A stretch of 64,000 nucleotides of DNA from Thiovibrio frasassiensis. GTDB lineage: Bacteria > Desulfobacterota > Desulfobulbia > Desulfobulbales > Desulfurivibrionaceae. Positions 1 to 14,589 of the stretch are shown piece after piece. The notes below the pieces were generated by a model. It saw nothing but the letters and a program-made list of their open reading frames with translations, searched no databases and had not been told where the DNA came from. Every line of letters starts with the position of its first letter. Positions within the stretch are counted from its first letter, which is position 1. Where the stretch lies: assembly GCF_029607905.1 (NCBI RefSeq), contig NZ_JAPHEH010000001.1, forward strand, positions 2,385,530 through 2,449,529, in the 5' to 3' direction. Position numbers and translations under genes: made by a program.

Positions 1-2
1 AC

Positions 3-986
3 GACGATTCCTGGGGCAAGAAATTCAGGGATGCGCTGCGAACTGCCGTGCGGCGCGGAGTCGAGGTCCGGGTACTCATCGATGCGGTGGGAGCCCGTTA
101 CTCGTTTCCTTCCATCATTGGCGAGCTGGAGCGTGACGGGATCCGGGTTGCCACATTCATGAAAACCATTCTCCCCTGGCGGTTTCGCTATCTCAATTTA
201 CGCAGTCACCGGAAAATTATGGTCACGGATGGCAGAACCGGTTTCAGCGGGGGGATGAATATCCGGGAGGGCTGCGTTCTGGGGGATAACCCGGCCTATC
301 CGCTGCAGGACCTCCATTTTAAGATCGAGGGCCCGGTGGTTGCCGAACTGCAGCAAGTCTTTGCCGAAGATTGGGCTTTCAGTACCGAGGAAAAGCTGGC
401 AGGGCCCGCCTGGTTTCCGGTTCAGGAACTCCGGGGGGGGGTGCTCGCCCGGGGAATATCCGACGGGCCGGATGAAGACCTTAACAAGCTCCGTTTCGTG
501 ATGATGGGGGCGATTGCAGTCGCCCGTCGTTCCATACGGATTGCGACCCCATATTTCCTGCCGGACAACGAACTGGTGGCGGCCCTGCAGATTGCAGCGC
601 TGCGCGGAATAAAGATCCAGATCCTGCTCCCCGGCACCAGCAACCTCCGCATGGTCAAATGGGCCTCCGATGCTTTGCTGGAAGAGTTGCTCCGCTCCGG
701 CTGCCAGATCCATTACAGTGCCGCTCCGTTTGATCACTCAAAAATGATGGTGGTCGACGGCGAATGGGTGCTCCTTGGTTCTGCGAACTGGGATGCCCGC
801 AGCCTGAGGCTTAATTTTGAATTCAATATGGAATGCTACGACCTCGATCTTGCCCGGATCATGGAAGAGATTCTCGCTGAAAAGGAGCGGCAGGCAACGG
901 AACTGACCCTCCCGGATCTGGATTCGAAAAAAATCGCAGCCCGCATGAGGAACCGGTTTTTCCGCTTGTTTTCGCCGTATCTTTAA
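3..986 (+). CDS. Cardiolipin synthase-like phospholipase D protein (5' truncated)
   Basis: The reading frame is open from base 3 and the window edge removes the N-terminus, so the GTG at 48 is probably internal. The product carries two phospholipase D HKD motifs: HRKIMVTD near base 207 and HSKMMVVD near base 735, each followed by the Gly-Gly or Gly-Ser stretch usual for the family (FSGGMN, LLGSAN). This is the bacterial cardiolipin synthase arrangement, in which two phosphatidylglycerol molecules are condensed at the inner membrane. The N-terminal membrane helices expected for ClsA are not visible because of truncation. Other PLD-superfamily transferases cannot be excluded. A perfect palindrome follows the stop codon. 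Confidence 0.85.
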   Translation, partial: DDSWGKKFRDALRTAVRRGVEVRVLIDAVGARYSFPSIIGELERDGIRVATFMKTILPWRFRYLNLRSHRKIMVTDGRTGFSGGMNIREGCVLGDNPAYPLQDLHFKIEGPVVAELQQVFAEDWAFSTEEKLAGPAWFPVQELRGGVLARGISDGPDEDLNKLRFVMMGAIAVARRSIRIATPYFLPDNELVAALQIAALRGIKIQILLPGTSNLRMVKWASDALLEELLRSGCQIHYSAAPFDHSKMMVVDGEWVLLGSANWDARSLRLNFEFNMECYDLDLARIMEEILAEKERQATELTLPDLDSKKIAARMRNRFFRLFSPYL

Positions 987-988
987 GG

Positions 989-1008
989 GGAAGCGGATAT
1001 CCGCTTCC
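989..1008. terminator. Perfect 20-bp palindrome between convergent genes
   Basis: GGAAGCGGATATCCGCTTCC is an exact inverted repeat just after the phospholipase D stop and before the end of the convergent cytochrome gene. It is followed by a short T-run only after six bases, so it is at best a weak bidirectional terminator. It could also be a protein-binding dyad. Confidence 0.4.
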
Positions 1009-1031
1009 GCCCATTTTCCCCAGGCACCCGC

Positions 1032-1376
1032 TTATTTTTTATGACACTCCTTGCAATTGGTCGGCCCTGTTTTCCGGCCTTTGTCGGCTAACTCCTTGTG
1101 GCATTTTTTACACATGTTCATGACATCTTTTCTCTGTAATTTGCCTGCACCCTTCATTTTGTCGACAACCTGAGATTCCTTGGGGAAAAATGCGTGGCAG
1201 GGCTGGCAATCGGGAAACATCCCCTGGTGACGGCCATGGTTAAAGGTGACCGAGCCCAGGCTGCCGCCGTTGAGGACAATCGACGAAGCCCCTTTCGCCT
1301 CAGCACCCATGCTGCTGCCTGCCGACAAGAGAATACCGCCGATAAGCATTGCCCCGAACAATGTTCCTGATTTCAT
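1032..1376 (-). CDS. Small trihaem c-type cytochrome (cytochrome c7/c3-like)
   Basis: A 114-residue exported protein with an N-terminal signal peptide (MKSGTLFGAMLIGGILLSAG) and three CXXCH haem-attachment motifs: CQPCH, CKKCH and CKECH. An HGRHQG segment before the first motif can supply distal haem ligands. Three haems in about 90 mature residues match the cytochrome c7/class III family, periplasmic electron carriers of Desulfobacterota. The start at 1376 was chosen because it begins the signal peptide and has a GGAG ribosome site 8 bases upstream; the longer frame to 1421 has no signal-like N-terminus. It is the last gene of the hydrogenase/kinase cluster on this strand, so it may exchange electrons with those proteins; that is inference. 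Confidence 0.85.
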   Translation of the reverse strand: MKSGTLFGAMLIGGILLSAGSSMGAEAKGASSIVLNGGSLGSVTFNHGRHQGMFPDCQPCHAFFPKESQVVDKMKGAGKLQRKDVMNMCKKCHKELADKGRKTGPTNCKECHKK

Positions 1377-1417
1377 TTTTTTGCTCCAATAATGATTGGC
1401 TAGGGGGAAGAACTGAA

Positions 1418-1846
1418 TCACAAATAACTACTCAAGGCACGAACCAGTTTTTGATTAAAATTATCTTGCAGAGATAAACAGAGGCTGGCCCCTTCATGCA
1501 GATAGTCGTCAAGGCCTTCCATGTAACTGCTGTTGTCTAAGGGACTTGGACAACCCAAGCTGTTATAGGTGATAATAATCGGAGTTGTTTGATTTACGGA
1601 ATCTTGCCTGATGAATTTGATGCCATTCAAAATAACGTTTTGTTTTTTGGCCATGGTTTGTAGCGTGTCTTTGGCGGAAAAGCTTTCGTTAATTATGATC
1701 AAAACATATTTTGTGGACCTTAAAATGTTGAGCCCCTTCACAAGGTAGGGGATAATTTCGCACTCCTGCTGGAATTTTTTTTCTATCGCGCGCTTGATCA
1801 ATGCATTCTCAGGAATTTCTTCTAGAATAACGACTTTGTCAGCCAT
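1418..1846 (-). CDS. Hypothetical protein, possibly a degenerate receiver-like domain
   Basis: A 142-residue cytosolic protein of no recognised family. It begins with an alternating beta-strand/helix pattern (VVILEEIPENALIKRAIE, then YVLIIINESF) that resembles the start of a CheY-like receiver, but the acidic pair and phospho-acceptor Asp of a working receiver are not obvious. The ribosome site GGAGATATT precedes the ATG. It sits 131 bp downstream of cheY and 41 bp upstream of the cytochrome gene on the same strand, so it may belong to the same signalling cluster. Function unknown; the receiver comparison is by eye. Confidence 0.6.
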   Translation of the reverse strand: MADKVVILEEIPENALIKRAIEKKFQQECEIIPYLVKGLNILRSTKYVLIIINESFSAKDTLQTMAKKQNVILNGIKFIRQDSVNQTTPIIITYNSLGCPSPLDNSSYMEGLDDYLHEGASLCLSLQDNFNQKLVRALSSYL

Positions 1847-1977
1847 AATATCTCCGAACTCCAGCTGTCCGCCTTATATTTCCCGGCCAGACCACGAGGT
1901 ATTCTTGTAATAGCTTTTCGACCGTGTAATCTTGCCGCCTCCTTGCAATAGCCGGAGGAATCCTCCAAGAAAAAAAT

Positions 1978-2382
1978 TCATACTTGGTTCTGGCCATAAC
2001 GGGTCAACACATTCTTGATGCTGTCCCGCAACTTGTCAATGTTGATCGGCTTGAGCACATACCCCTTGGCCCCGGCGCCGATGGCCTCGATCACCATCTG
2101 TTCCTGGCCGTGGGAGGTCACCATGATGATCAGGGCCTGCTTTTGCATGGCAAGAATCTGGCGGGTCGCGGCAATGCCGTCCATGTCCGGCATGGTGATA
2201 TCCATGGTGATAAGGTCCGGGATGGAGAGGCCCTTGTTGGTCATATATTCGATGGTATCAACCGCTTCCAGGCCGGTTTTGCAGATTTTGCCCACTTCGT
2301 AGCCAAGCTGTTCCAGCATGACCACCAACCGTTTTGCGGTCAGGGCCGAATCGTCCACCACCATGATGTTCGTTTTACTCAT
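1978..2382 (-). CDS. CheY-like single-domain response regulator
   Basis: A 134-residue receiver with all key residues: acidic pair D10/D11 (MVVDDSA), phospho-acceptor D61 (TMDITMPDMDG), T89 and K111 (VLKPIN). There is no output domain, so it should act by protein-protein contact as CheY does. Its ATG overlaps the stop of the upstream CheX-like gene in a TAATG junction, implying translational coupling. Its likely phosphodonor is the CheA-like kinase two genes upstream, with the neighbouring CheX-like protein as phosphatase. The motility or transcriptional target cannot be told from sequence. Confidence 0.93.
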   Translation of the reverse strand: MSKTNIMVVDDSALTAKRLVVMLEQLGYEVGKICKTGLEAVDTIEYMTNKGLSIPDLITMDITMPDMDGIAATRQILAMQKQALIIMVTSHGQEQMVIEAIGAGAKGYVLKPINIDKLRDSIKNVLTRYGQNQV

Positions 2383-2912
2383 TATAGTTTCTCCACATAA
2401 TTGAGGCTCAGATCAAAAAGTTCCTTGGGGCCGATGAAATGAATGCTCAACATGCCGCTGTCGGTAACGATATCCAGGGTGTAAAAGGTTGCCCCCTTGT
2501 TGCGGGTAATGTTCTTGGCTTCGCTGATAATGATGGGCGGGGAGATGGGAATGATCGTGCCCTCGGAGGCCAAATCACCCATGGCGTTGCCGACGATAAT
2601 GTTGATCAGTTCGGCCACGGTTTCCTCCCGCATCATTTCCTGTTCATCGTCCGCGATCTCCAACCCTTCGGTGCTGGCAATAAAAACCCGCTCCGTCAGC
2701 GCCCGGTCGAAACTGAAGGCGATGAGCATGCGGATGTCCGCCTCCACCGACAGGATCGAGGTCAGATGCAGCAATTGCATGCGCTTGACATCCCGCATGT
2801 GCACCGTGGTTATCCGCACCGGAATCTTCAGCTCATCTCTCAGATAGCCCACGGTCCGGTCTCCGATGGCCTGGACCAACCGGCTGTGTCTGTCGTCTTG
2901 GGCATGGTTCAT
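2382..2912 (-). CDS. CheX/CheC-family phosphatase-like protein
   Basis: A 176-residue protein of the CheC/CheX/FliY type, which dephosphorylates CheY-P. The catalytic helix signature E-x-x-N is present as ELIN (E101, N104) within AELINIIVGNAMGDL, with the following small-residue helix typical of the family. Only one such helix was seen, as in CheX. A good ribosome site (GGGAGAAAAAGCA) precedes the ATG, and the stop overlaps the cheY start. It lies 118 bp after the dihaem kinase gene. The gene trio kinase-CheX-CheY forms a complete phosphorelay without receptor or CheW genes nearby. Confidence 0.75.
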   Translation of the reverse strand: MNHAQDDRHSRLVQAIGDRTVGYLRDELKIPVRITTVHMRDVKRMQLLHLTSILSVEADIRMLIAFSFDRALTERVFIASTEGLEIADDEQEMMREETVAELINIIVGNAMGDLASEGTIIPISPPIIISEAKNITRNKGATFYTLDIVTDSGMLSIHFIGPKELFDLSLNYVEKL

Positions 2913-3030
2913 TGCTTTTTCTCCCTGGCCGTATGGTGATCGATAAAATTTCCGGTTGTCCCCTAATTGTAACCGTTTCCGTAGTGCCGCGATTACAAAG
3001 ATTGTTGCTTTGCAACCCTGTGATCTTGTG

Positions 3031-5358
3031 TTACGAACCTGTGGCCTTTTTCCCTGTTTGCGAGTCCTTCAATGCTTCAAGGTACGGCAGGATGAATCTG
3101 AACCTGGTCCCCTGACCGAGGGTCGAGTCCACCTCAATCCTGCCGCCCAGCCTTTCCGTTTCCATGCGGACCGCTGCCAGCCCCACGCCGCGGCCGGACA
3201 GCTCGCTTACTTCCTCCTTGGTGGAGAACTCGTCTTTAAAGATCAGCAGCCGCAGCGTTGCCTCATCCAGAGCAGCACCCTGTTCCGGGGTGAAAAGGCC
3301 CGTGGCCACCCCCTTGCGCCGGAGCGCCTCAAGATCAAGGCCGCGGCCGTCGTCGTCGATCTCGACGACGATTTGCTCATCCTCCAAGAAGGTACGGCAG
3401 CGGAGGTGGCCCTCTTCCTCCTTGCCCTGCTCCAGCCGTTCCTCCGGGCTCTCGAGGCCGTGATCCACGGCGTTGCGGAAGAGATGGATCAACGACTTGG
3501 TAAAGGGGCCGTAGATCTCCGGGGCGACCCGCACCCCATGGTCCTCCACCTCCACCGGGGCCAGCTCCTTTTCCAGCCGCTCGGCCAGCCGCACCGCTGC
3601 CTTGGCGTGTCCGGACAGCAGCTCGCTCAAGGAGACATAGCGCAAGCGCTTGATGCGGCGCAGCATCTCCCTGGTCTCTTCGGAATCCAGGCCCGGTCCT
3701 CCCTGCAAGAGCCGGTCGGCCAAACGCTCCAGCATCTCGGTCTGCTCGGGGGTCAGGGAAAGATGGCCCCGCCGGGCAAAGAAGGAGTCGCCCAGGGTTT
3801 CCCGGAGCACGGCCAGTTCCTGGGCCAGGGCCTGATCGGCCAAGGCCTGCTCTTTCTCCAGCACACCCCGGTCCGGCTGCTGCTTGGCCAGGTCGCGGCG
3901 CAGCCGGTTGAGGGCGGATTCGTATTGATGGAGACAGCGCGGCAGGTGAAAGAACTCCAGTTGACCGAAAAGCCCCTTGAAGGTATGCACCTGGCGGTAA
4001 ATCTCGGCAAGCCCTGCGGCCAGCTCCTCGTCCGGGGCGGCGAGCAGCCGGGGCAGGGTGTTTTCCGCAAAGTTGCGGTAATCGTCAAGCACCTCGAACA
4101 GCTCGGCCGATTCGGTGACCGCGGCCACGATGAAGCGCAGGTGGGTCTGCTCCTCCGCCACCCGGGCCTCAAGGCGGCGCTGTTCGGTGATATCGGTGAT
4201 GATCAGCATCAGCCGTTCCGCGCCCAGCAGGCGGTAGGCGATATCCAGGTAACGGTCGTTAAGAAACAGCTCCTTGGGCATCAGCGAGAGCAGGATGTCG
4301 CGCTGAAATTCGTCGGCGGTCTGCACGATCCGCTCGATATTGGCGCCGAAACGGTCCCGTTCCTCCTTATCTTCGGGAAAGAGCAGGGCAGCCACGGATG
4401 CACCGGCCACCTCCTTACCGAAAAAGGTCAGGCATTCCCGGCTGTATTCCGGTTCCACCGCCAGATCCGGGCCAAAAGAGAGAAAGCCCTGGCCCGAGTT
4501 GTTGAGCAGCCCGGCCAGGCGGTCGCTCTTGTCGGCCAGTTGGCGGCGGGTGATGAGAATGCGCCGGTACATGGTGGCGATGAGATAGGTGACCAGCAGC
4601 ACCACCGTGGCATTGGCCAGCAGGATGTAGATGAGCTGCCGGGTGCTGTCCGCAGTCTGCTGCAGAAAGGCGGCTTTGTCGATGGTCACCCCCAGCACCC
4701 CGGCGGTCTCCCCGGTCTGCCAGTAAGTATGGCAGACGGTGCACTTATCCTCCACCGGGATGCGCTCGTAAAAATGGGCCTCGCGGGCGTCGAGCATCTC
4801 GGCTCGGTTCTGTTTGTTAAAGCGGAGATTTTTATCCAAAACGTAATGACATTCGGCGCAATCTTTGTCCTGGACCTTCGCCAGGTGGATCTGTCCGGCG
4901 GCGGAATCGAAACGGCCGGCCAGATGCCAGTCCTTGCGCAGGAACATCCCCCGGGTTTTTTCGTACAGGACGAGGTTGGTGCTGACAAACCCGGCCGGTT
5001 GACTGTGGACAAAGGGCAGCCCCACGGTCACCGTGCCGGACCGGTAGTTCATCAACCCTTCGCGGGGATAGAGGGTGGTGGCGGTTACCCCTTCCAGCTG
5101 GGCGATATTGTCCATCACCAATTGAAAGGTTTTGCGCTGGCCTTTTTCGATGGAATCGCGGGTCTGGGAGACATAGCTGGAGAGGATGCCGCGGCCCTGC
5201 TCGCGGATGGTGTGGTTCATCATCTGCTTTTGGTAGTAATAAAATATGACTCCGGCCACCACCGAGATCAGCAGCAGGCAGGAAAAGGCGATCAGGAGAA
5301 AGCGCGGCACCACCCGGTCTGGGTTGGGCTCCCGGTTGCCCGGTTTCGGTTTATCCAT
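3031..5358 (-). CDS. Membrane CheA-like HPt histidine kinase with dihaem c periplasmic sensor domain
   Basis: A 775-residue sensor kinase. Order of parts: TM1 about 19-41; periplasmic domain 42-241 with two haem c motifs, CAECH (167-171) and CTVCH (206-210); TM2 about 242-263; PAS-like region about 280-395; an HPt domain with the phosphorylatable motif HTFKG (H458); and a CheA-type ATPase with HLFRNAVDHGLE, DDGRG and SGRGVGLAAV boxes. CheA-type P5/CheW coupling and P2 domains are absent. The haems suggest that it senses redox state or a small ligand in the periplasm. It starts 13 bp after the hydrogenase small-subunit gene, so it is probably cotranscribed and may read electrons from that enzyme (inference). 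The CheX and CheY genes follow. Confidence 0.88.
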   Translation of the reverse strand: MDKPKPGNREPNPDRVVPRFLLIAFSCLLLISVVAGVIFYYYQKQMMNHTIREQGRGILSSYVSQTRDSIEKGQRKTFQLVMDNIAQLEGVTATTLYPREGLMNYRSGTVTVGLPFVHSQPAGFVSTNLVLYEKTRGMFLRKDWHLAGRFDSAAGQIHLAKVQDKDCAECHYVLDKNLRFNKQNRAEMLDAREAHFYERIPVEDKCTVCHTYWQTGETAGVLGVTIDKAAFLQQTADSTRQLIYILLANATVVLLVTYLIATMYRRILITRRQLADKSDRLAGLLNNSGQGFLSFGPDLAVEPEYSRECLTFFGKEVAGASVAALLFPEDKEERDRFGANIERIVQTADEFQRDILLSLMPKELFLNDRYLDIAYRLLGAERLMLIITDITEQRRLEARVAEEQTHLRFIVAAVTESAELFEVLDDYRNFAENTLPRLLAAPDEELAAGLAEIYRQVHTFKGLFGQLEFFHLPRCLHQYESALNRLRRDLAKQQPDRGVLEKEQALADQALAQELAVLRETLGDSFFARRGHLSLTPEQTEMLERLADRLLQGGPGLDSEETREMLRRIKRLRYVSLSELLSGHAKAAVRLAERLEKELAPVEVEDHGVRVAPEIYGPFTKSLIHLFRNAVDHGLESPEERLEQGKEEEGHLRCRTFLEDEQIVVEIDDDGRGLDLEALRRKGVATGLFTPEQGAALDEATLRLLIFKDEFSTKEEVSELSGRGVGLAAVRMETERLGGRIEVDSTLGQGTRFRFILPYLEALKDSQTGKKATGS

Positions 5359-5371
5359 CTCCGGCCTCCTC

Positions 5372-6325
5372 CTATGATCTTTTCACAATAACCCCTGGCG
5401 CAGGCGCGGGATCATCATGGGTGTGGTAGAGCCGGGCACGGGGGAACAGCTCGCCGGCGCAGCCGATGCAGGGGTGCCCGGCCCGGACGCAGTTGTTGGT
5501 GTTGCCGTTGTAGCCGCTGGCGACGCAATCGTTGTAGGTCACCGGTCCCTGGCAGCCCAACTCCAGCAGGCATCCTTCCTCGCCGATGCGGAGGGCGAAA
5601 TCGCGGGCCTGAAAGGCTGGGTAGCGGGGGCAGCGCTCATGGACCGAATGGGTGAAGAACTGCCGCGGACGCCTGGCATCGTCGAGATCAGGCAACCCCT
5701 TGCTCTTAATGAAATGGAGGAGGGTGTAGACCAGGTGCTCGGGGTGCATGGGGCAGGCGGGCAGGTTGACCGTTGGCGTCTTGATGCCCCGCTGCTTGAG
5801 AAAATCATCCAGGGATGCAGCGCCGGTGAGGGTGCCGGCCATTTTCGCCACCCCGCCCGAGGCGGCACAAGTGCCGACGGCAATACAGGCGGATGCTTTC
5901 GCGGCCAGCAAGTTTACCCATTCGCTGATGGGCTTATGGGCCATCATGCAGGCGTGCGGCATGGCCACGGGGATGGCGCCCTCCAGAATTAGGATGTACG
6001 GCTTGTTGGCAGCGGCCAGTTTATTGAGAATCTGCGGTACCTGAGTCCCGGTGGCGGAAGAGAGATTGGGATGGTACAGCACCCGGCTGAAATAGGTGAG
6101 AAAATCCAGGATGGTGATCTGCTCGACATTGAGAAACGAGGTGGAGCAGCCGGAACAGGACGCCCCCTGCAGCCAGACCAGATCGGGCCGCGACCAGCCG
6201 ACGGACGAAGGGTTGGCCTCGGCAGCCAGCAACTCTTCGAAGGAGAGCAGCGGCGCAGCCCCGGCCGCGAGCACCACCTGGTAGATTCTTTGCAGAAATT
6301 TCCGTCGATCCAAGGTTATTGTCAT
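5372..6325 (-). CDS. [NiFe]-hydrogenase small subunit with Tat signal
   Basis: A 317-residue electron-transfer subunit. The N-terminus is a Tat signal (RRKFLQ, then a hydrophobic stretch), so the dimer should be exported folded to the periplasm. Ligands for three Fe-S clusters are visible: proximal C57, C60, C153, C191; distal H229, C232, C252, C258; medial C267, C286, C289. C279 in NNCVRAGHPC sits where most group 1 enzymes have proline, so the medial cluster may be [4Fe-4S], as in [NiFeSe] enzymes. There is no C-terminal membrane helix. It follows the large subunit after 166 bp that hold a repeat doublet, and is followed 13 bp later by the dihaem kinase. No cytochrome b or maturation gene is in the window. 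Confidence 0.93.
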   Translation of the reverse strand: MTITLDRRKFLQRIYQVVLAAGAAPLLSFEELLAAEANPSSVGWSRPDLVWLQGASCSGCSTSFLNVEQITILDFLTYFSRVLYHPNLSSATGTQVPQILNKLAAANKPYILILEGAIPVAMPHACMMAHKPISEWVNLLAAKASACIAVGTCAASGGVAKMAGTLTGAASLDDFLKQRGIKTPTVNLPACPMHPEHLVYTLLHFIKSKGLPDLDDARRPRQFFTHSVHERCPRYPAFQARDFALRIGEEGCLLELGCQGPVTYNDCVASGYNGNTNNCVRAGHPCIGCAGELFPRARLYHTHDDPAPAPGVIVKRS

Positions 6326-6360
6326 TTTCAGTCAGCAGTACCAGGTCAGAGTTTTACAAT

Positions 6361-6401
6361 AACTCCCCCGCCCTTGACGGGAGGGGGCTGGGGGGTGGGT
6401 G
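6361..6401 (-). repeat. GC-rich interspersed repeat, left half of an inverted doublet
   Basis: Read on the minus strand this is a CACCC...AGCCCCCTCCC-loop-GGGCGGGGG unit with an internal hairpin. It aligns with the unit at 6431-6474 in opposite orientation and with the two units flanking the DUF559 gene at 14.1-14.55 kb. It lies between the two hydrogenase genes. Confidence 0.7.
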
Positions 6402-6430
6402 AACTCGCCAACAGCATCACCTCATGCACC

Positions 6431-6474
6431 TTCCCCCTCACCCTAGCCCTCTCCCGCAAGGGGCGAGGGGACTT
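6431..6474 (+). repeat. GC-rich interspersed repeat, right half of an inverted doublet
   Basis: The unit CCCCTCACCCTAGCCCTCTC continues into a CCCG...GGGGCGAGGGG hairpin. With 6361-6401 it forms an inverted pair separated by about 30 bp, a MITE- or REPIN-like layout, inserted between hydrogenase large and small subunit genes on the transcribed strand. Confidence 0.7.
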
Positions 6475-6491
6475 TTTTTGTTCCGTACGGT

Positions 6492-8042
6492 TTAATGCAC
6501 CGAGCACGCAATGCAAGGATCGGCGGAGCGGACGATGCGGGCCAATTCCAGAGGATTGGCCGGATCGGCGATCCGGGTGCCGATCAGCATCTGCTCCACC
6601 GCCCCCGGTTGCCCGGTGGCGTCCCGCGGGCCCATGTTCCAGGTGGTGGGCATCACCATTTCATAATTCTTGATCAACCCCTTATTGTCGATTTCCACCC
6701 AGTGGCCGAGGGCGCCGCGCGAGGCCTCGGTGATCCCGATGCCTTTTACGTTGCGGGGCATTTCCTTTTCGCTGAAACCGAGAACCCCCGGCTGGACCTG
6801 CTCGACCTGCTCCTTGAGCCGCTTGAGCAACAACGAGACCGTGATATACCGGCTCAAATGGCGGCCCAGCACAGAGTTGTAGTCTTTTAGCCCGATGCCG
6901 AGATCCCGGTTGAGCTGGTCCACCAGGCGGTTCAGGGCCGGATTGCGGCCGGAATGATAGGTGTTCACCACCCGGGCCGCAGCCCCGGTTTCCATGACCT
7001 TGCCCCCGTAGCGGGGGGCGCGGCTCCAGCTGTATTTTCCGTCCGGCAGCTGTTCCTCGCGCTGGAATTCCTGCCAGTCCAAGGGCTCCAGCCTATTTGC
7101 CCCCAGAGGCTTGACGGCGCCGGATTTGTTTTTGTAGTAGCTGTAGGTGTGATCCTCGGTGATCGCGTTGAGGTCGAGAGCTGTGTGTCTGCCCACGATG
7201 GTCGCGCCTCCGGCAAACAAATGATTTTTGCCGGAAGAGTCGGGAAAATAGGGAAACGAGAGGAAATTGCCGTAACCGCGTCCTTCCTTGAAATAGCCTG
7301 GAAAAGCCTTGGCCACCGCCAGGATATCTTCCCGGTAACAGGAATGGACAAACCGCTCCACCTGATTGAGCAGGGTGCGGTATTGGGCGAGATTGTTGAT
7401 GGTTGGCCGGGTCGTGACCCCGCCGGCCTCAATGGCCACGGGGTGGGGGGACTTGCCGCCGAACAGGGCTACCATCTTGTGCAGGGAGGCCATGACGGTA
7501 AAGGATTCCAGATAATTATGCACCGCCGAGAGATTGGCTTCCCTGTCTTTGAGGAAATCGCCCTTATACCGGGGGAGAAAGGGGGCGGCTGGAAAGATCC
7601 GCTGGGAGCGGGTTTCGGCGCGCACCCAATCGCGCATCGCAGTCAAGCCGGGGTCCGCGCCCCGGTACTCCAGCACGGCGGTGACGTCGATGAAATCCAG
7701 GGCGCTCAACTGGTAAAAATGAAACAGGCAATCCTGCACCTGATACGCGCCGACAATGAGGTTGCGGAGCAGTTGCCCGTTGGCATTGGGGCGGATCCCC
7801 ATGGCGTTTTCCAGGGCCAGGGCCGCCGCTTCCGCGTGGGCATACGGACAGACCCCGCAGACCCGCTGGGTCAACTGCAAGGCGGTGCGGGGATCATAGC
7901 CGATGAGCGCCTTTTCAATGCCGCGAAAGAGCATGCCCGAAGTCCGGGCCGAGGCAACCACCCCGTTTTCGATCCGGGTCTCGAACTTGAGATGCCCTTC
8001 CACCCTGGTCAGGGGATCAACGGTTATTTTGGTTGCGGTCAT
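6492..8042 (-). CDS. [NiFe]-hydrogenase large subunit lacking a C-terminal extension
   Basis: A 516-residue catalytic subunit. The N-terminal motif RVEGH and the first metal site RVCGVC (C62, C65) are present, and the second site DPCIACSVH (C510, C513) ends the protein: the stop codon directly follows the histidine after which the maturation protease normally cuts. Known H2-sensor subunits of the HupV/HoxC type also lack this extension. The first cysteine of the last motif is coded by a Cys codon, so this is not a selenoenzyme. A strong ribosome site (AAGGAGG) lies 7 bases before the ATG. It is the first gene of the apparent operon leading to the small subunit, the dihaem kinase, CheX and CheY. 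H2 oxidation for sensing rather than bulk metabolism is inference. Confidence 0.93.
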   Translation of the reverse strand: MTATKITVDPLTRVEGHLKFETRIENGVVASARTSGMLFRGIEKALIGYDPRTALQLTQRVCGVCPYAHAEAAALALENAMGIRPNANGQLLRNLIVGAYQVQDCLFHFYQLSALDFIDVTAVLEYRGADPGLTAMRDWVRAETRSQRIFPAAPFLPRYKGDFLKDREANLSAVHNYLESFTVMASLHKMVALFGGKSPHPVAIEAGGVTTRPTINNLAQYRTLLNQVERFVHSCYREDILAVAKAFPGYFKEGRGYGNFLSFPYFPDSSGKNHLFAGGATIVGRHTALDLNAITEDHTYSYYKNKSGAVKPLGANRLEPLDWQEFQREEQLPDGKYSWSRAPRYGGKVMETGAAARVVNTYHSGRNPALNRLVDQLNRDLGIGLKDYNSVLGRHLSRYITVSLLLKRLKEQVEQVQPGVLGFSEKEMPRNVKGIGITEASRGALGHWVEIDNKGLIKNYEMVMPTTWNMGPRDATGQPGAVEQMLIGTRIADPANPLELARIVRSADPCIACSVH

Positions 8043-8420
8043 TGCACGGCCTCCTTGCCGAATTCCACCCGGTTGTGCCTTTGATACACTGCGTCCGGTG
8101 CATCACTGAGCAATGGTACCAGATTTCTGAGTGAAAGAAAGCAAGGTTTTAATCAATAGAGAATTGCGGCATATCGTAAAGATACATAAAACGACGATTT
8201 CTCGGAGCAGTAGCAAAGGGTCGCGAGAATGGGTCAACAGAGGTCGGGTCTCCCAAAAGTGTATCCAGCCTTCTGAAAGTGGAAAACAAAAGAGCTTGAG
8301 AGTACTAACGTTTGCACAAAATGGGCACGGAACCAGGTTTTCTGTGGATGGGTTGATGAAAGAAATCAAAATATCGGGCTCCGTCCCCATTTCCGATCGC
8401 GGCCAAGTCCCGAGGTCTTC
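8043..8420. other. 378-bp intergenic region upstream of the hydrogenase operon
   Basis: No convincing gene, RNA or repeat is visible. A 95-codon frame on the minus strand (8103-8390) has no recognisable composition or ribosome site. The hydrogenase promoter should lie here; I looked for a sigma-54 GG-N10-GC signature and did not find one. Confidence 0.5.
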
Positions 8421-9284
8421 TTATAAGAGCTTTTCGACGGTGTAGCCTTTTCGTCTCAGAGTTTCGATGATCCCCTCGGTCCCCGCCAAATGGCCGGCAC
8501 CGACAAGAATAAATTCTTTCTCGGGGGTCCTGTGATAGGCTTCAAGCAAAGGGAACCAAAGCTTATTGCGGTCTGTCAGCAGTTTCTTGTACAGTTTCGG
8601 CATTGTTTTTTTGAGTTCGGCAACAAAGAGCGCATCAATTTTCTTGAGGTCCCCTTTTCGCCAAGCCTCCACCATGGTTTCATAATCCTGCTTGATTGAC
8701 TTGAGATCCCGCAAGGTGTGAGCGATATAGGCGTCTTCATTCCCCGCGCCCATCTCTACGACGTATTGGATTTGCTGGTCGATAGTCTCAAGCCCTTCGA
8801 TTCTTTTCTTTTCCTCTGTCGCTAATTTATGAAAAAAAGAGTCAACCCCCTCCTTGGCAACGCCAAATTTGGCGAGTTCAACGGATGCCAAGGTTACTGC
8901 AATAATCGACGGTTTAAAATGCTTGAGATTTTCGAGGGGGATACCGCGAACGGCGCAATATTCGTTGAGCAAACGGTAGGTTTTGCCTGATACATGCTGG
9001 TCAATGGTCGAGCCATCAGCATACACGGCTTTTGCCAGCAACTTCTCTTGCACAGAGGGTTCATTTAACTTGCCGAGATCGGTTTCGAAAACAAGGAGGT
9101 CGGAGGCCCGATACGCTTCTGCGAATTCGGGGGGCAGGGGGAAATCAGACGGACGTAACAAGTGAAATGTGCCGCCTAGATACATGACGGAGTTGTCTTT
9201 TTGGATTTTCCATACGGAAGATTCTGCCCAGGCCTGGGTGCAAATAAGGAAAACCAGGGCTATACTCAGTAAGATCTTTTTCAT
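8421..9284 (-). CDS. TraB/GumN family protein
   Basis: A 287-residue protein with a cleavable signal peptide (MKKILLSIALVFLICTQAWA). The TraB/GumN hallmarks are present: YLGGTFHLL near residue 35 and the C-terminal FILVGAGHLAGTEG, the two conserved GxxH elements thought to form a metal-dependent active site (the family includes Tiki-like metalloproteases). The protein is likely periplasmic or lipid-anchored. It stands alone between the hydrogenase cluster and the autotransporter gene, transcribed in the same direction as both. The substrate is unknown. Confidence 0.85.
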   Translation of the reverse strand: MKKILLSIALVFLICTQAWAESSVWKIQKDNSVMYLGGTFHLLRPSDFPLPPEFAEAYRASDLLVFETDLGKLNEPSVQEKLLAKAVYADGSTIDQHVSGKTYRLLNEYCAVRGIPLENLKHFKPSIIAVTLASVELAKFGVAKEGVDSFFHKLATEEKKRIEGLETIDQQIQYVVEMGAGNEDAYIAHTLRDLKSIKQDYETMVEAWRKGDLKKIDALFVAELKKTMPKLYKKLLTDRNKLWFPLLEAYHRTPEKEFILVGAGHLAGTEGIIETLRRKGYTVEKLL

Positions 9285-9463
9285 ACACTCATTGCTCTTT
9301 TTTGCCCTTGCTGTTTTTTTGCTTTGGCGTTTATTGCCATTTGCTCTTTAAAAAAACAAAATGGTCCCCTTTCTCAGAAGCGAAGGCGGGGATGAGTAAG
9401 AGTGTAGAAGGTAATCGGGAAAGTGTCTCGGCTTTTCCTGTGCCCGCAAAAAAACCTTTTTGT

Positions 9464-12286
9464 TCAGAACTGATACTGCAGGGTGACCTGTCCGGCCACT
9501 TGCGTTTCATTACCGCTCATCTGGCCATATTCCGCATCAGCCACCAAGCTCAGCCTGTCGCTCAACAGCAGCTGGGTGCCGCAGCCGATAAAGCCGCCGG
9601 CCACATTCTCGTCGCCCGCCGCGTTGAAGCGGAAATCGCTGCCGCCGAGGTGCATCTCGATGGTGCCGCTGTCGGTGTGTCGGGTCTGGATGCCTGCCCG
9701 CAGGCTGATTTCGCCTGCGGCCACCCTTTGCGCCGCCTCCAGTTGCAGCCGGGTCGAGAGCGCATGCACGGTGCGGGAGTCCACCTGCAGGTTGGCGTTG
9801 GTGGTGCCGGTCTCTTCATAGCCATCATAGCGGCCTCCGCTGTAGGTCACAGTGGCGGATGGCCGCAAGTCAATTTTGGGGGTGAGCACATAGCTGCTGC
9901 CCAGGGTGAGTGAGGGGCTGATGAAGTAGCTGTCGGTATTGCTGGTTGCGGTTTCATAGCCGTTCATGTTGTCCAGCACCTGGCGCTGGGTGTCGTGGGC
10001 CTCGTTGCCGCCGATCAGGGTAACGGTGAGATTGACCGGGCCAAGAAAGACATGGTTGTAAACACCAAGAAAAACACTGTCGGTATCGGTGTCAGTCATC
10101 GCGGTTTCTGTTGTCCCCGTGGCAGCCCCAACCAGCACCCCCGCGCGGCACTTGCCGAAATCCTGCTCGTAGCCGATCACCACCCCGCCAAGGTGGGAGT
10201 CGTAGGCCAGCATCTGGCCTTCCTGTGCCCGTTCGCCTTTGCTGCCAAACACCTGACCCCAGGCCACCGGCTGCCGATCCTGATGCAGCATGCCGGGGCT
10301 AAGAGTCAGCGCGGCAAGTTGAATGGGTTGCTTGGCCGGAGTGCGCTGCATCCGCTGACCGATCACCTGGTGCACCCCTGTGGCCAAGGTATTCAAGCTG
10401 GCAGCGCGGGCCGATTCGCCCGTGGGTTCAACTACAACCACGGTATTGCCGATCTTCACCGCGTTATCGGTATAGAGGTTGATGACCTCGGTGTTTTCGA
10501 AGTTCAGCACCGACGAACCGAAGATGCCGTGGATATTGACGGTATCGAGGTCGCCGCCGTTATTACCCAGGTCGATGCGGCCGATGATCCGGGAGCCGGG
10601 AAGCAGGTTTAAGGTGGTGTCGGTGTCGCCATCGATAGCATAACCGTTTGCGCCTGTTGATGCAATCAGCCCGCTGTTGTTGATGGTGGTGTTGGTCTCT
10701 GCCGCATCAATGCCGACCCCATTGTCGCCTGTCGTGCTGATGCTGCCGCTGTTATTGATGGTAATATTGGGTCCCACCGTTGCAATCCCGACCCCATTGT
10801 CGCCTGTTATGGTGATGCTGCCGCTGTTGGCGATGGTGCTCGTGTCTCCATCCGCAAAAATGCCAAGAGAAGCCAAGCCTGCTGTGCTGATGGTGCCGCT
10901 GTTGCTGATGGCGGTATTGTCCCCGTATGTTTCAATGACTCGAGCAAGGGGGCCAGTCGTGGAAATGATGCCACTGTTGGTGATACTGGTATTGTCGCCG
11001 TAAGTTCGAAAAGCACTGGTTGATCCGCCAGTGGTGGAAATGCTGCCGCTGTTGGTGATGACGGCATTGTCACCCGATGAGTAAAAGCCGAGAGCATTGT
11101 CGCCAGTTGTGGAAATGGTGCCACTGTTGGTGATAACGGCATTGTTACCCTCAGAGTAAATGCCGGAGGCAATATCGCCGGTCGTGGAAATGGTGCCACT
11201 GTTGACAATGGTGGCAAAGTTGCTCCATGAGGAAATGCCGTAACTACCGTTACCGGACGTAAAAATGCTGCCGCTGTTGATGATATTTGCACTGAGTCCG
11301 TCAGAGTAAATGCCGAGAGCACTAACGCCACTTGTGGAAATGTGACCACTGTTGACGATGGTGGCATTGTCACCCTGAGAGACAATGCCGCGAGCACTAT
11401 CTCCAGTCGTGGAAATGTGACCACTGTTGACGATGGTGGCAAAGTCGCCCAATGAGCGAATGCTGTCACCATTGCTCCCGATCGTGGAAATGGAGCCAGT
11501 GTTGGTGATGACGGCATTGTCAGCGCCAACACTAGAGGCAATACCGTAAGCAGCTAAACCGGTTGTGGAAATAGTGCCACTGTTGCTGATGACGGCATTG
11601 TCAGCGTAAGAGGCAATGCCGTAACCGGAGTTGCCGGACGAAGAAATGTTCCCGCTGTTGCTGATGACGGCATTGGCGCCATCAGAATAAATGCCGAGGC
11701 CATTAATACCGGTCGTTGAAATGGTGCCACTGTTGGTGATGATTGCACTGATTCCCTCAGAGTAAATGCCGTAAGAATCATCACCGATCGTGGAAATGGT
11801 GTCACTGTTGGTGATGCTTGCACTGATTCCATCAGAGTAAATACCGTAAGAATATTCGCCGGTCGTGGAAATGGTGCCACTGGTGGTGATGCTTGCACTG
11901 ATTCCATGAGAGTAAATGCCGTAAGAATAATCACCGGTCGTGGAAATGGTGCCACTGTTGCAGAGGGTGGCATTGACACCCTGAGAGACAATGCCGAGGC
12001 TATTACCACCGGTCGTGGAGATGGAGCCATCATTATTCACGATATTGTTAATGCCGGATGCAGTGACAGCCGTGGCCGCTGTATTGAGCTGACCTCCGGC
12101 TTGGATGGTGCCGGTTTCGTTGTCATTGAGGGTTTGCTGGGTAGTTACCGTCTCGCCATCCACAATCTCAAATGAGGCGGCCTGGGATATGGATGCGGAG
12201 AGGGCGGTGTTGGCCACAATCGTCACCGCAATCAGAGCGAGACGCTGGAGGGAAGGGGTCTTGGCGTATGTGAATCCTTTAGACAT
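9464..12286 (-). CDS. Autotransporter with about 18 25-residue beta-helix repeats
   Basis: A 940-residue type Va secretion protein. It has a signal peptide ending near residue 36 (SISQA-ASF), a passenger made of about eighteen tandem 25-residue repeats (about residues 80-555, consensus A-x-I-x-NSGTISTTG-x5-GIYS-x-G-x-x), a linker, and a C-terminal autotransporter barrel from about residue 660. The chain ends in VTLQYQF with the terminal aromatic residue recognised by the BAM machinery. NSG-rich repeats of this type form a parallel beta-helix at the cell surface and are often adhesins; the ligand is unknown. The repeats are near-identical at the DNA level (75-bp period), so copy number may vary between strains. 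It is a stand-alone gene. Confidence 0.92.
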   Translation of the reverse strand: MSKGFTYAKTPSLQRLALIAVTIVANTALSASISQAASFEIVDGETVTTQQTLNDNETGTIQAGGQLNTAATAVTASGINNIVNNDGSISTTGGNSLGIVSQGVNATLCNSGTISTTGDYSYGIYSHGISASITTSGTISTTGEYSYGIYSDGISASITNSDTISTIGDDSYGIYSEGISAIITNSGTISTTGINGLGIYSDGANAVISNSGNISSSGNSGYGIASYADNAVISNSGTISTTGLAAYGIASSVGADNAVITNTGSISTIGSNGDSIRSLGDFATIVNSGHISTTGDSARGIVSQGDNATIVNSGHISTSGVSALGIYSDGLSANIINSGSIFTSGNGSYGISSWSNFATIVNSGTISTTGDIASGIYSEGNNAVITNSGTISTTGDNALGFYSSGDNAVITNSGSISTTGGSTSAFRTYGDNTSITNSGIISTTGPLARVIETYGDNTAISNSGTISTAGLASLGIFADGDTSTIANSGSITITGDNGVGIATVGPNITINNSGSISTTGDNGVGIDAAETNTTINNSGLIASTGANGYAIDGDTDTTLNLLPGSRIIGRIDLGNNGGDLDTVNIHGIFGSSVLNFENTEVINLYTDNAVKIGNTVVVVEPTGESARAASLNTLATGVHQVIGQRMQRTPAKQPIQLAALTLSPGMLHQDRQPVAWGQVFGSKGERAQEGQMLAYDSHLGGVVIGYEQDFGKCRAGVLVGAATGTTETAMTDTDTDSVFLGVYNHVFLGPVNLTVTLIGGNEAHDTQRQVLDNMNGYETATSNTDSYFISPSLTLGSSYVLTPKIDLRPSATVTYSGGRYDGYEETGTTNANLQVDSRTVHALSTRLQLEAAQRVAAGEISLRAGIQTRHTDSGTIEMHLGGSDFRFNAAGDENVAGGFIGCGTQLLLSDRLSLVADAEYGQMSGNETQVAGQVTLQYQF
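10624..12049 (-). repeat. Coding 75-bp tandem repeat array
   Basis: About 18 units of 75 bp encode the autotransporter passenger. For example, gcttgcactgattccatcag starts at 11816 and recurs with one change at 11891. One unit is two codons longer (SSVGADN). This array creates long spurious open frames in other frames. Confidence 0.9.
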
Positions 12287-14140: not shown

Positions 14141-14179
14141 TAACCCCCTCTCCCTCAGGGAGAGGGTTGGGGTGAGGGA
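14141..14179 (-). repeat. GC-rich hairpin repeat flanking DUF559 gene (3' side)
   Basis: On the minus strand this reads CCCTCACCCCAACCCTCTCC then a TGA-loop hairpin CCCTCTCCCT/AGGGAGAGGG. It overlaps the last codons and stop of the DUF559 gene (PSPQPSP). It is inverted relative to the copy at 14514-14551. Confidence 0.75.
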
Positions 14180-14589
14180 ATGTCCTGCAATGCAGCGGAA
14201 ATCTCTGCAAGCACAGCATCAAGCTCACCCAGTATTTCATGGTTCCAGAAGCGGATAATCCTGTATCCCAATTGTTCCAGTCTTGCCGTCCGCACGGCAT
14301 CGTAGGCCCTTTGTTCCGTGTGCTGACCTCCATCGGCTTCAACGACCAGCTTTGCCTCAACACAGATGAAATCAACAATATAAGTTTCAATGACCACTTG
14401 ACGACGAAACTTGTAGCCGTTGAGACGACGGGCCCGGAGGTGCTGCCAGAGCGCTTTTTCAGCCTCGCTGGATTGTCGGCGTAAGGCGCGAGCCCGTGTC
14501 AGCAGCTTTTTGGGTGCCCTCTCCCTGTCCCTCTCCCGGGGGGAGAGGGGATCTTTCCTTACCGTGGCGCAAGCATTTTGCGAACCCAT
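14155..14589 (-). CDS. DUF559 endonuclease-like protein inside the yej operon
   Basis: A 144-residue protein of the DUF559 family, related to very-short-patch-repair and type II restriction endonucleases. The nuclease-like core is visible: SSEAEKALWQHLRARRLNG, FRRQVVIETYIVDFIC, then KLVVEADGGQH (the E-x-D/E-x-K-like acidic region) and RLEQLGYRIIRFWN. Both ends are formed by the flanking GC-rich repeat: the N-terminal SPRERDRERAP stretch and the C-terminal PSPQPSP are translated repeat DNA. The ATG overlaps the yejE stop in a TGATG junction. A real activity is not established. Presence between yejE and yejF, which are usually adjacent, suggests insertion. Confidence 0.8.
   Translation of the reverse strand: MGSQNACATVRKDPLSPRERDRERAPKKLLTRARALRRQSSEAEKALWQHLRARRLNGYKFRRQVVIETYIVDFICVEAKLVVEADGGQHTEQRAYDAVRTARLEQLGYRIIRFWNHEILGELDAVLAEISAALQDIPSPQPSP
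14514..14551 (+). repeat. GC-rich hairpin repeat flanking DUF559 gene (5' side)
   Basis: On the plus strand GTGCCCTCTCCCTGTCCCTC leads into the hairpin CCCTCTCCC/GGGAGAGGG. It is the inverted partner of 14141-14179 and encodes part of the DUF559 N-terminus on the other strand. Confidence 0.75.

Follow-up and report, generated by a model that had tools for sequence, protein, structure and literature searches.

What is the role of a [NiFe] hydrogenase whose large subunit has the processing histidine as its very last residue and whose gene lies beside genes of chemotaxis-type signalling? This question is raised by a 64,000-nucleotide stretch of the Thiovibrio frasassiensis genome (the window), in which an initial annotation had read the motif DPCIACSVH followed at once by a stop codon, had concluded that no C-terminal peptide was left to be removed, and had regarded this as fitting a sensing role. 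The reading of the end was correct: the large subunit terminates in S-A-D-P-C-I-A-C-S-V-H, with TAA directly after the histidine, and its ORF covered PF00374 over positions 1-508 of 508 in a profile search (455 bits). The C-terminal peptide is thought to block Tat export of cofactor-free hydrogenase (PMC12134894), and the hydrogenase groups reported to do without it naturally are 2b, 2d, 4c, 4e and 4g (PMC12134894, PMC7294309).

According to its sequence, the locus encodes a group 1-type heterodimer, in which the small subunit bears a Tat signal and the large subunit is devoid of the peptide, directly upstream of a dihaem CheA-like kinase, CheX and CheY (Table 1). The small subunit carries the twin-arginine motif RRKFLQ at residues 7-12 (6302-6307), which is absent from HoxB in the alignment, as well as an extra medial-cluster cysteine (Cys279), and has no C-terminal membrane anchor. 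The kinase consists, in order, of TM1, a dihaem-c sensor in the periplasm, TM2, a PAS-like region recognised by eye rather than by a family match, an Hpt region with His458 (in HTFKG), and a CheA-type HATPase (3082-3495); no CheW domain was found in it by domain search. Elsewhere, profile searches showed that the genome encodes FliM/FliN, TatC and HypD, together with 9 CheW-domain and 19 MCP-signal matches.

Table 1. Coordinates of the hydrogenase-kinase locus, its neighbours and a second large subunit of the same genome
Feature	Position	Strand	Basis or remark
Trihaem cytochrome c7-like protein	1032-1421	minus	profile matches
CheY-like single-domain response regulator, Asp in DITMPD	1978-2382	minus	PF00072
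CheX-family CheY-P phosphatase, ELIN (ExxN) motif	2382-2912	minus	PF13690
Membrane CheA-like histidine kinase, 775 aa	3031-5358	minus	profile matches, hydropathy
Kinase periplasmic sensor domain, aa 39-241	4636-5244	minus	two TM helices by hydropathy; common to MCPs of Thiocystis, Sedimenticola, Sulfurimonas
Haem-c site 2, CTVCH, aa 206-210	4729-4743	minus	homologous to single haem site of clade B MCPs
Haem-c site 1, CAECH, aa 167-171	4846-4860	minus	inside clade-specific insertion
Hydrogenase small subunit	5372-6325	minus	PF01058 + PF14720, alignment
Hydrogenase large subunit without C-terminal extension, 516 aa	6492-8042	minus	PF00374 full length, alignment
L2 motif DPCIACSVH; stop TAA	6495-6521; 6492-6494	minus	sequence read directly
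L1 motif RVCGVC	7848-7865	minus	alignment
Repetitive protein, 940 aa	9464-12286	minus	autotransporter-like by eye
Group 3-type large subunit (L036), 440 aa open frame	G000:C1, about 1559.7-1561.0 kb		ends at processing histidine

The c7 cytochrome and a degenerate receiver downstream of CheY were considered as core parts and rejected, neither being conserved at orthologous loci. The c7-like gene is absent beside CheY in L050, L051 and L053; its product is a possible electron carrier and probably not part of the operon core. The receiver-like gene, which together with the c7-like gene occupies 1032-1846 and follows CheY here and was not seen there in orthologous loci, recurs upstream of the hydrogenase in L049. 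A 166-base spacer (6326-6491) separates the large- and small-subunit genes. It contains a hairpin resembling a terminator (6365-6383) as well as a repeat-like stretch, of which partial copies lie at 14145-14178 and 14517-14556; the corresponding spacer is a 1-base gap in three orthologues and measures 143 and 300 bases in two others. Rfam gave no matches over window positions 1-9500, and a promoter and terminator scan yielded nothing confidently attributable to the hydrogenase-kinase operon.

The association of hydrogenase and transducer is widely conserved. The order HydL-HydS-dihaem kinase-CheX-CheY was recovered, whole or up to a contig end, in G000, G003, G005, G013, G014, G016, G019, G024 and G041, with G024 read without its CheX/CheY and the HydS of L055 masked by an antisense ORF call. 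A second clade (clade B, as opposed to clade A of the window), whose enzymes are about 46% identical, also has no extension and a Tat-type small subunit, followed by a methyl-accepting chemotaxis protein (MCP) with one periplasmic CxxCH. Among 80 named relatives from GTDB genomes, 46 had no extension, 32 had one of 7-16 residues, and 2 were unscorable. An MCP or kinase gene was adjacent at 40/46 loci without extension versus 1/32 with it (Fisher p 1e-14), and a HycI-like protease was nearby at 0/46 versus 13/32 (Fisher p 2e-6), both values being descriptive only because the loci share ancestry. The single extension-bearing locus with an MCP in range was L147. Outside the 40, the MCP of L089 is cut by the contig end, L085 has a head-to-head second set with MCPs, the contigs of L074 and L131 are too short to judge, and L102 and L139 are real exceptions. 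The last of these (L139:4640-7026, Bipolaricaulota) has neither extension, Tat signal nor transducer, shows the order small-large and sits on a long branch; L085 (positions 1-9753), a Verrucomicrobia contig, carries its two no-extension hydrogenase sets head to head, and two haem MCP genes follow one of them. A Tat-like motif was present in 42 of the 44 small subunits encoded at no-extension loci.

In a large-subunit tree built without the columns of the C-terminal tail, the enzymes without extension fell on one side except for one row (2 label changes versus 32 in shuffles; 0/500 shuffles). Record titles place the family in Deltaproteobacteria, Thiocystis, Sedimenticola, Sulfurimonas, Verrucomicrobia, Planctomycetes groups, Hydrogenedentes and Riflebacteria, mostly as metagenome-assembled genomes. 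Conversely, when full-length sensor domains were collected from 145 genomes of the class, 35/37 had a large-subunit gene within 3 kb; another, in G013, lies on a contig that begins at the small subunit, which brings the hydrogenase-linked total to 36/37 and leaves one orphan, an MCP (G087:C49) with no hydrogenase beside it. Likewise, 35/37 large-subunit matches had the sensor, the others being a gene fragment (G043) and an extension-bearing enzyme (G012).

These data suggest that the locus quite probably encodes a [NiFe] H2 chemosensor located in the periplasm, with reduction of haem c as its signal. It is also plausible, with somewhat less confidence, that one phylum-spanning class of exported [NiFe] hydrogenases serves as periplasmic H2 chemoreceptor subunits, which would transfer electrons to a haem-c receptor and would be naturally Tat-exported without the C-terminal-peptide checkpoint. 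The strongest competitor, considered rather unlikely, is catalytic uptake, in which a periplasmic group 1 hydrogenase would deliver electrons to c-type cytochromes and the kinase or MCP would be merely co-regulated or act as a general redox reporter. The canonical L1/L2 motifs agree with it, the active-site and gas-channel residues, being those of catalytic enzymes, count against a chemosensor and make energy-yielding turnover by HydLS possible, and the trihaem c7-like cytochrome lies close by. However, the conserved partner is a signal transducer, and orthologous loci showed neither cytochrome b nor NrfD nor a conserved cytochrome partner. Moreover, uptake in this genome has an enzyme of its own, encoded separately, which bears the extension and is accompanied by a protease and hyp genes, and the single HycI protease match of the genome adjoins that enzyme and not the locus in the window.

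The sensor domain provides further evidence for the chemosensor reading. The hydrogenases of Thiocystis violacea, Sedimenticola selenatireducens and a Sulfurimonas MAG are 61-64% identical to the window enzyme, and the first ~250-270 residues of the protein encoded by the next gene are 36-39% identical to the window kinase, with both haem motifs kept; the output domain of these proteins is MCP signalling (MCPsignal) instead of kinase. This swap on a shared sensor indicates that the sensor domain stays paired with the hydrogenase and that only the output varies, in both cases within chemotaxis-type signalling. The sensor domains of clades A and B are homologous (hhalign 99.3%, E 3e-20), the first haem of clade A lying in an insertion. 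By sequence alone, no relatives of solved structure were found for the domain, and Pfam returned only a sub-threshold Mcp40H-20_sensor match for clade B and none for the window protein. The clade B model (pLDDT 82.5) matches WalK and two sensors of haem-c chemoreceptors, GSU0935 and GSU0582 (3b42/3b47), with E values of 1.6e-5 for GSU0935 and 9e-5 for GSU0582. The clade A model is moderate (pLDDT 70.6) and gave the same kind of matches, the best PDB hit having E 4.5e-3 and the GSU0935/GSU0582-type fold 1.2e-2, with no PDB match below E 1e-3.

The haem motif CxxCH was kept in 34/40 transducers scored. In six Planctomycetota MCPs (L115, L119, L126, L127, L130 and L141), which lie beside no-extension hydrogenases and keep the sensor pattern, it has been lost. 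Coupling across the family must therefore involve something besides electron transfer to haem: either these members would be coupled differently, or the signal common to all is not haem reduction. Such pairs speak for a second alternative, that H2 is sensed by the hydrogenase and signalled by direct protein contact, as in the RH-HoxJ complex, the haems only tuning the response or sensing something else, such as O2 or NO. Direct contact of this kind is possible by analogy, and some sCache_heme sensors do bind NO (PMC12889525). As the whole explanation it is nevertheless quite unlikely, given that haem motifs are found in the large majority of transducers and in both clades, and that clade A gained a second one.

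The initial annotation had also drawn a comparison with H2 sensors of the HupV/HoxC type, which did not hold as an affiliation. The large subunit is only 33% identical to HoxC and falls among group 1-type sequences in the tree, where HoxC forms a long outside branch of unsure exact placement. Its closest sequence matches are periplasmic [NiFe] enzymes, the L1 and L2 motifs are canonical, and the gas-channel and active-site residues V64, L112 and H69 are also canonical, where HoxC has I/F/Q. The large subunit is group 1-type by sequence, yet it does not have the extension of that group: a Tat signal is present at the locus, whereas the cleavable extension with its own protease is not. Among the matches listed for a plasmid collection, only catalytic-type relatives at ≤36% were found. 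Identity with the cytoplasmic regulatory hydrogenases of group 2b (HupUV/HoxBC) would account for the missing extension and for the extra medial cysteine, which HoxB shares; considering the Tat signal, the absence of the I/F/Q residues, the distance to HoxC in the tree and a partner kinase that is not HoxJ-like, this identity is very improbable and was rejected.

The end of the large subunit is equally a conserved property. Orthologues with 69-94% identity in 7 other genomes of the order (G003, G005, G014, G016, G019, G024 and G041) all align through residue 516, and every one whose 3' end was read stops at the same residue, by TAA or TGA. Since different stop codons occupy one position in these orthologues, and the second clade ends likewise, a local mutation or sequencing error has a practically negligible probability and was discarded as the cause. 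In an alignment with group 1 and group 2b large subunits, HoxC of Cupriavidus necator terminated at the same histidine, as the annotation had expected of HoxC-type sensors, whereas HoxG, HyaB and HybC continued for 15 residues and the uptake enzyme of the same genome for 16, within the 15-25 that had been anticipated for catalytic group 1 uptake enzymes.

Whether the missing extension itself reveals sensing is a different matter. The group 3-type cytoplasmic large subunit of the same genome also terminates in DPCISCSVH followed by a stop codon. Because this enzyme is likewise without extension, and groups 2b, 2d, 4c, 4e and 4g are reported to be so too, the feature is weak evidence by itself, and it was dropped as proof. 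The proposed sensing role is well supported, at the level of sequence comparison, by the transducer neighbours, the conservation across phyla and the output-domain swap.

A possible mechanism for the chemosensor can be outlined. The Hyp machinery would fill the active site with no need for an endopeptidase step, and the HydLS dimer would be exported by Tat. H2 would then be split in the periplasm, and electrons would travel along the three iron-sulfur clusters of the dimer and on to the haems in the kinase sensor domain. The redox change of these haems would alter kinase activity across the membrane and hence the level of CheY-P, with CheX resetting CheY-P. In relatives, a dihaem or one-haem sensor fused to an MCP would feed the ordinary chemotaxis pathway. 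The reported midpoint potentials of GSU0582 and GSU0935 are -156 mV and -251 mV (PMC8396549), and 1 Pa H2 at pH 7 poises about -266 mV according to a Nernst estimate made here, implying that haems of such potential could report environmental H2, although these potentials belong to other proteins. If the analogy with GSU0582 (PMC8396549) holds, reduction of the haem may produce the inactive state, the sign being a guess. Cells would probably respond by swimming toward H2 or away from it; alternatively, CheY may control some other target.

Anaerobic communities trade heavily in H2, and no molecular basis of bacterial movement toward it was found in the open-access literature. Coupling of a hydrogenase to a chemoreceptor or to a tethered CheA would open H2 taxis to direct testing, for example in the deposited strains Thiocystis violacea DSM 208 and Sedimenticola selenatireducens DSM 17993. 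A search of the open-access literature, with subscription journals outside its scope, found no description of a [NiFe] hydrogenase paired with an MCP or haem kinase, and this widespread family of exported hydrogenases beside chemotaxis receptors and kinases is apparently undescribed; in one study, 87 MCP genes in the neighbourhood of [NiFe] large subunits are listed as a cluster, with no discussion of it in the available part (PMC12727194). An exported group 1-type enzyme is not among the groups reported to be without peptide, so it bears on the question of hydrogenase assembly. In addition, annotation pipelines probably score such genes as uptake hydrogenases, and H2 metabolism would be overstated.

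Several known systems can be compared with the locus. Like group 2b (HoxBC/HupUV), it has no extension, is kinase-coupled, possesses the extra medial cysteine and is proposed here to sense H2; group 2b enzymes, however, are cytoplasmic, have no Tat signal, act through HoxJ-type kinases and transcription, and carry I/F and Gln for His, whereas the present locus pairs an export signal and canonical residues with haem-c transducers and an output of the chemotaxis type. The periplasmic [NiFe]/[NiFeSe] enzymes of group 1 (HynAB, HysAB) are its best PDB relatives and share the Tat-type small subunit and canonical motifs; they are respiratory, carry and then lose a C-terminal peptide and usually have the gene order small-large, unlike the present locus with its order large-small, no peptide and a transducer partner. 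The haem-c sensors GSU0582/GSU0935, DcrA and sCache_heme (DUF3365/Tll0287) resemble its sensor in the periplasmic PAS/Cache-like fold (on the basis of the clade B model), CxxCH and MCP or kinase output. In the portions of the sources available, the function ascribed to them is the sensing of redox state, O2 or NO, and no hydrogenase partner is mentioned; the second haem within an insertion distinguishes clade A from them. The accessible part of the HydDB description (PMC5037454) contains a putative chemotactic class for [FeFe] hydrogenases (C2) and none for [NiFe]. Group C2, "chemotactic (putative)", embodies the same idea of a hydrogenase linked to an MCP in an unrelated enzyme family, while the present enzyme is of the [NiFe] type and bears an export signal.
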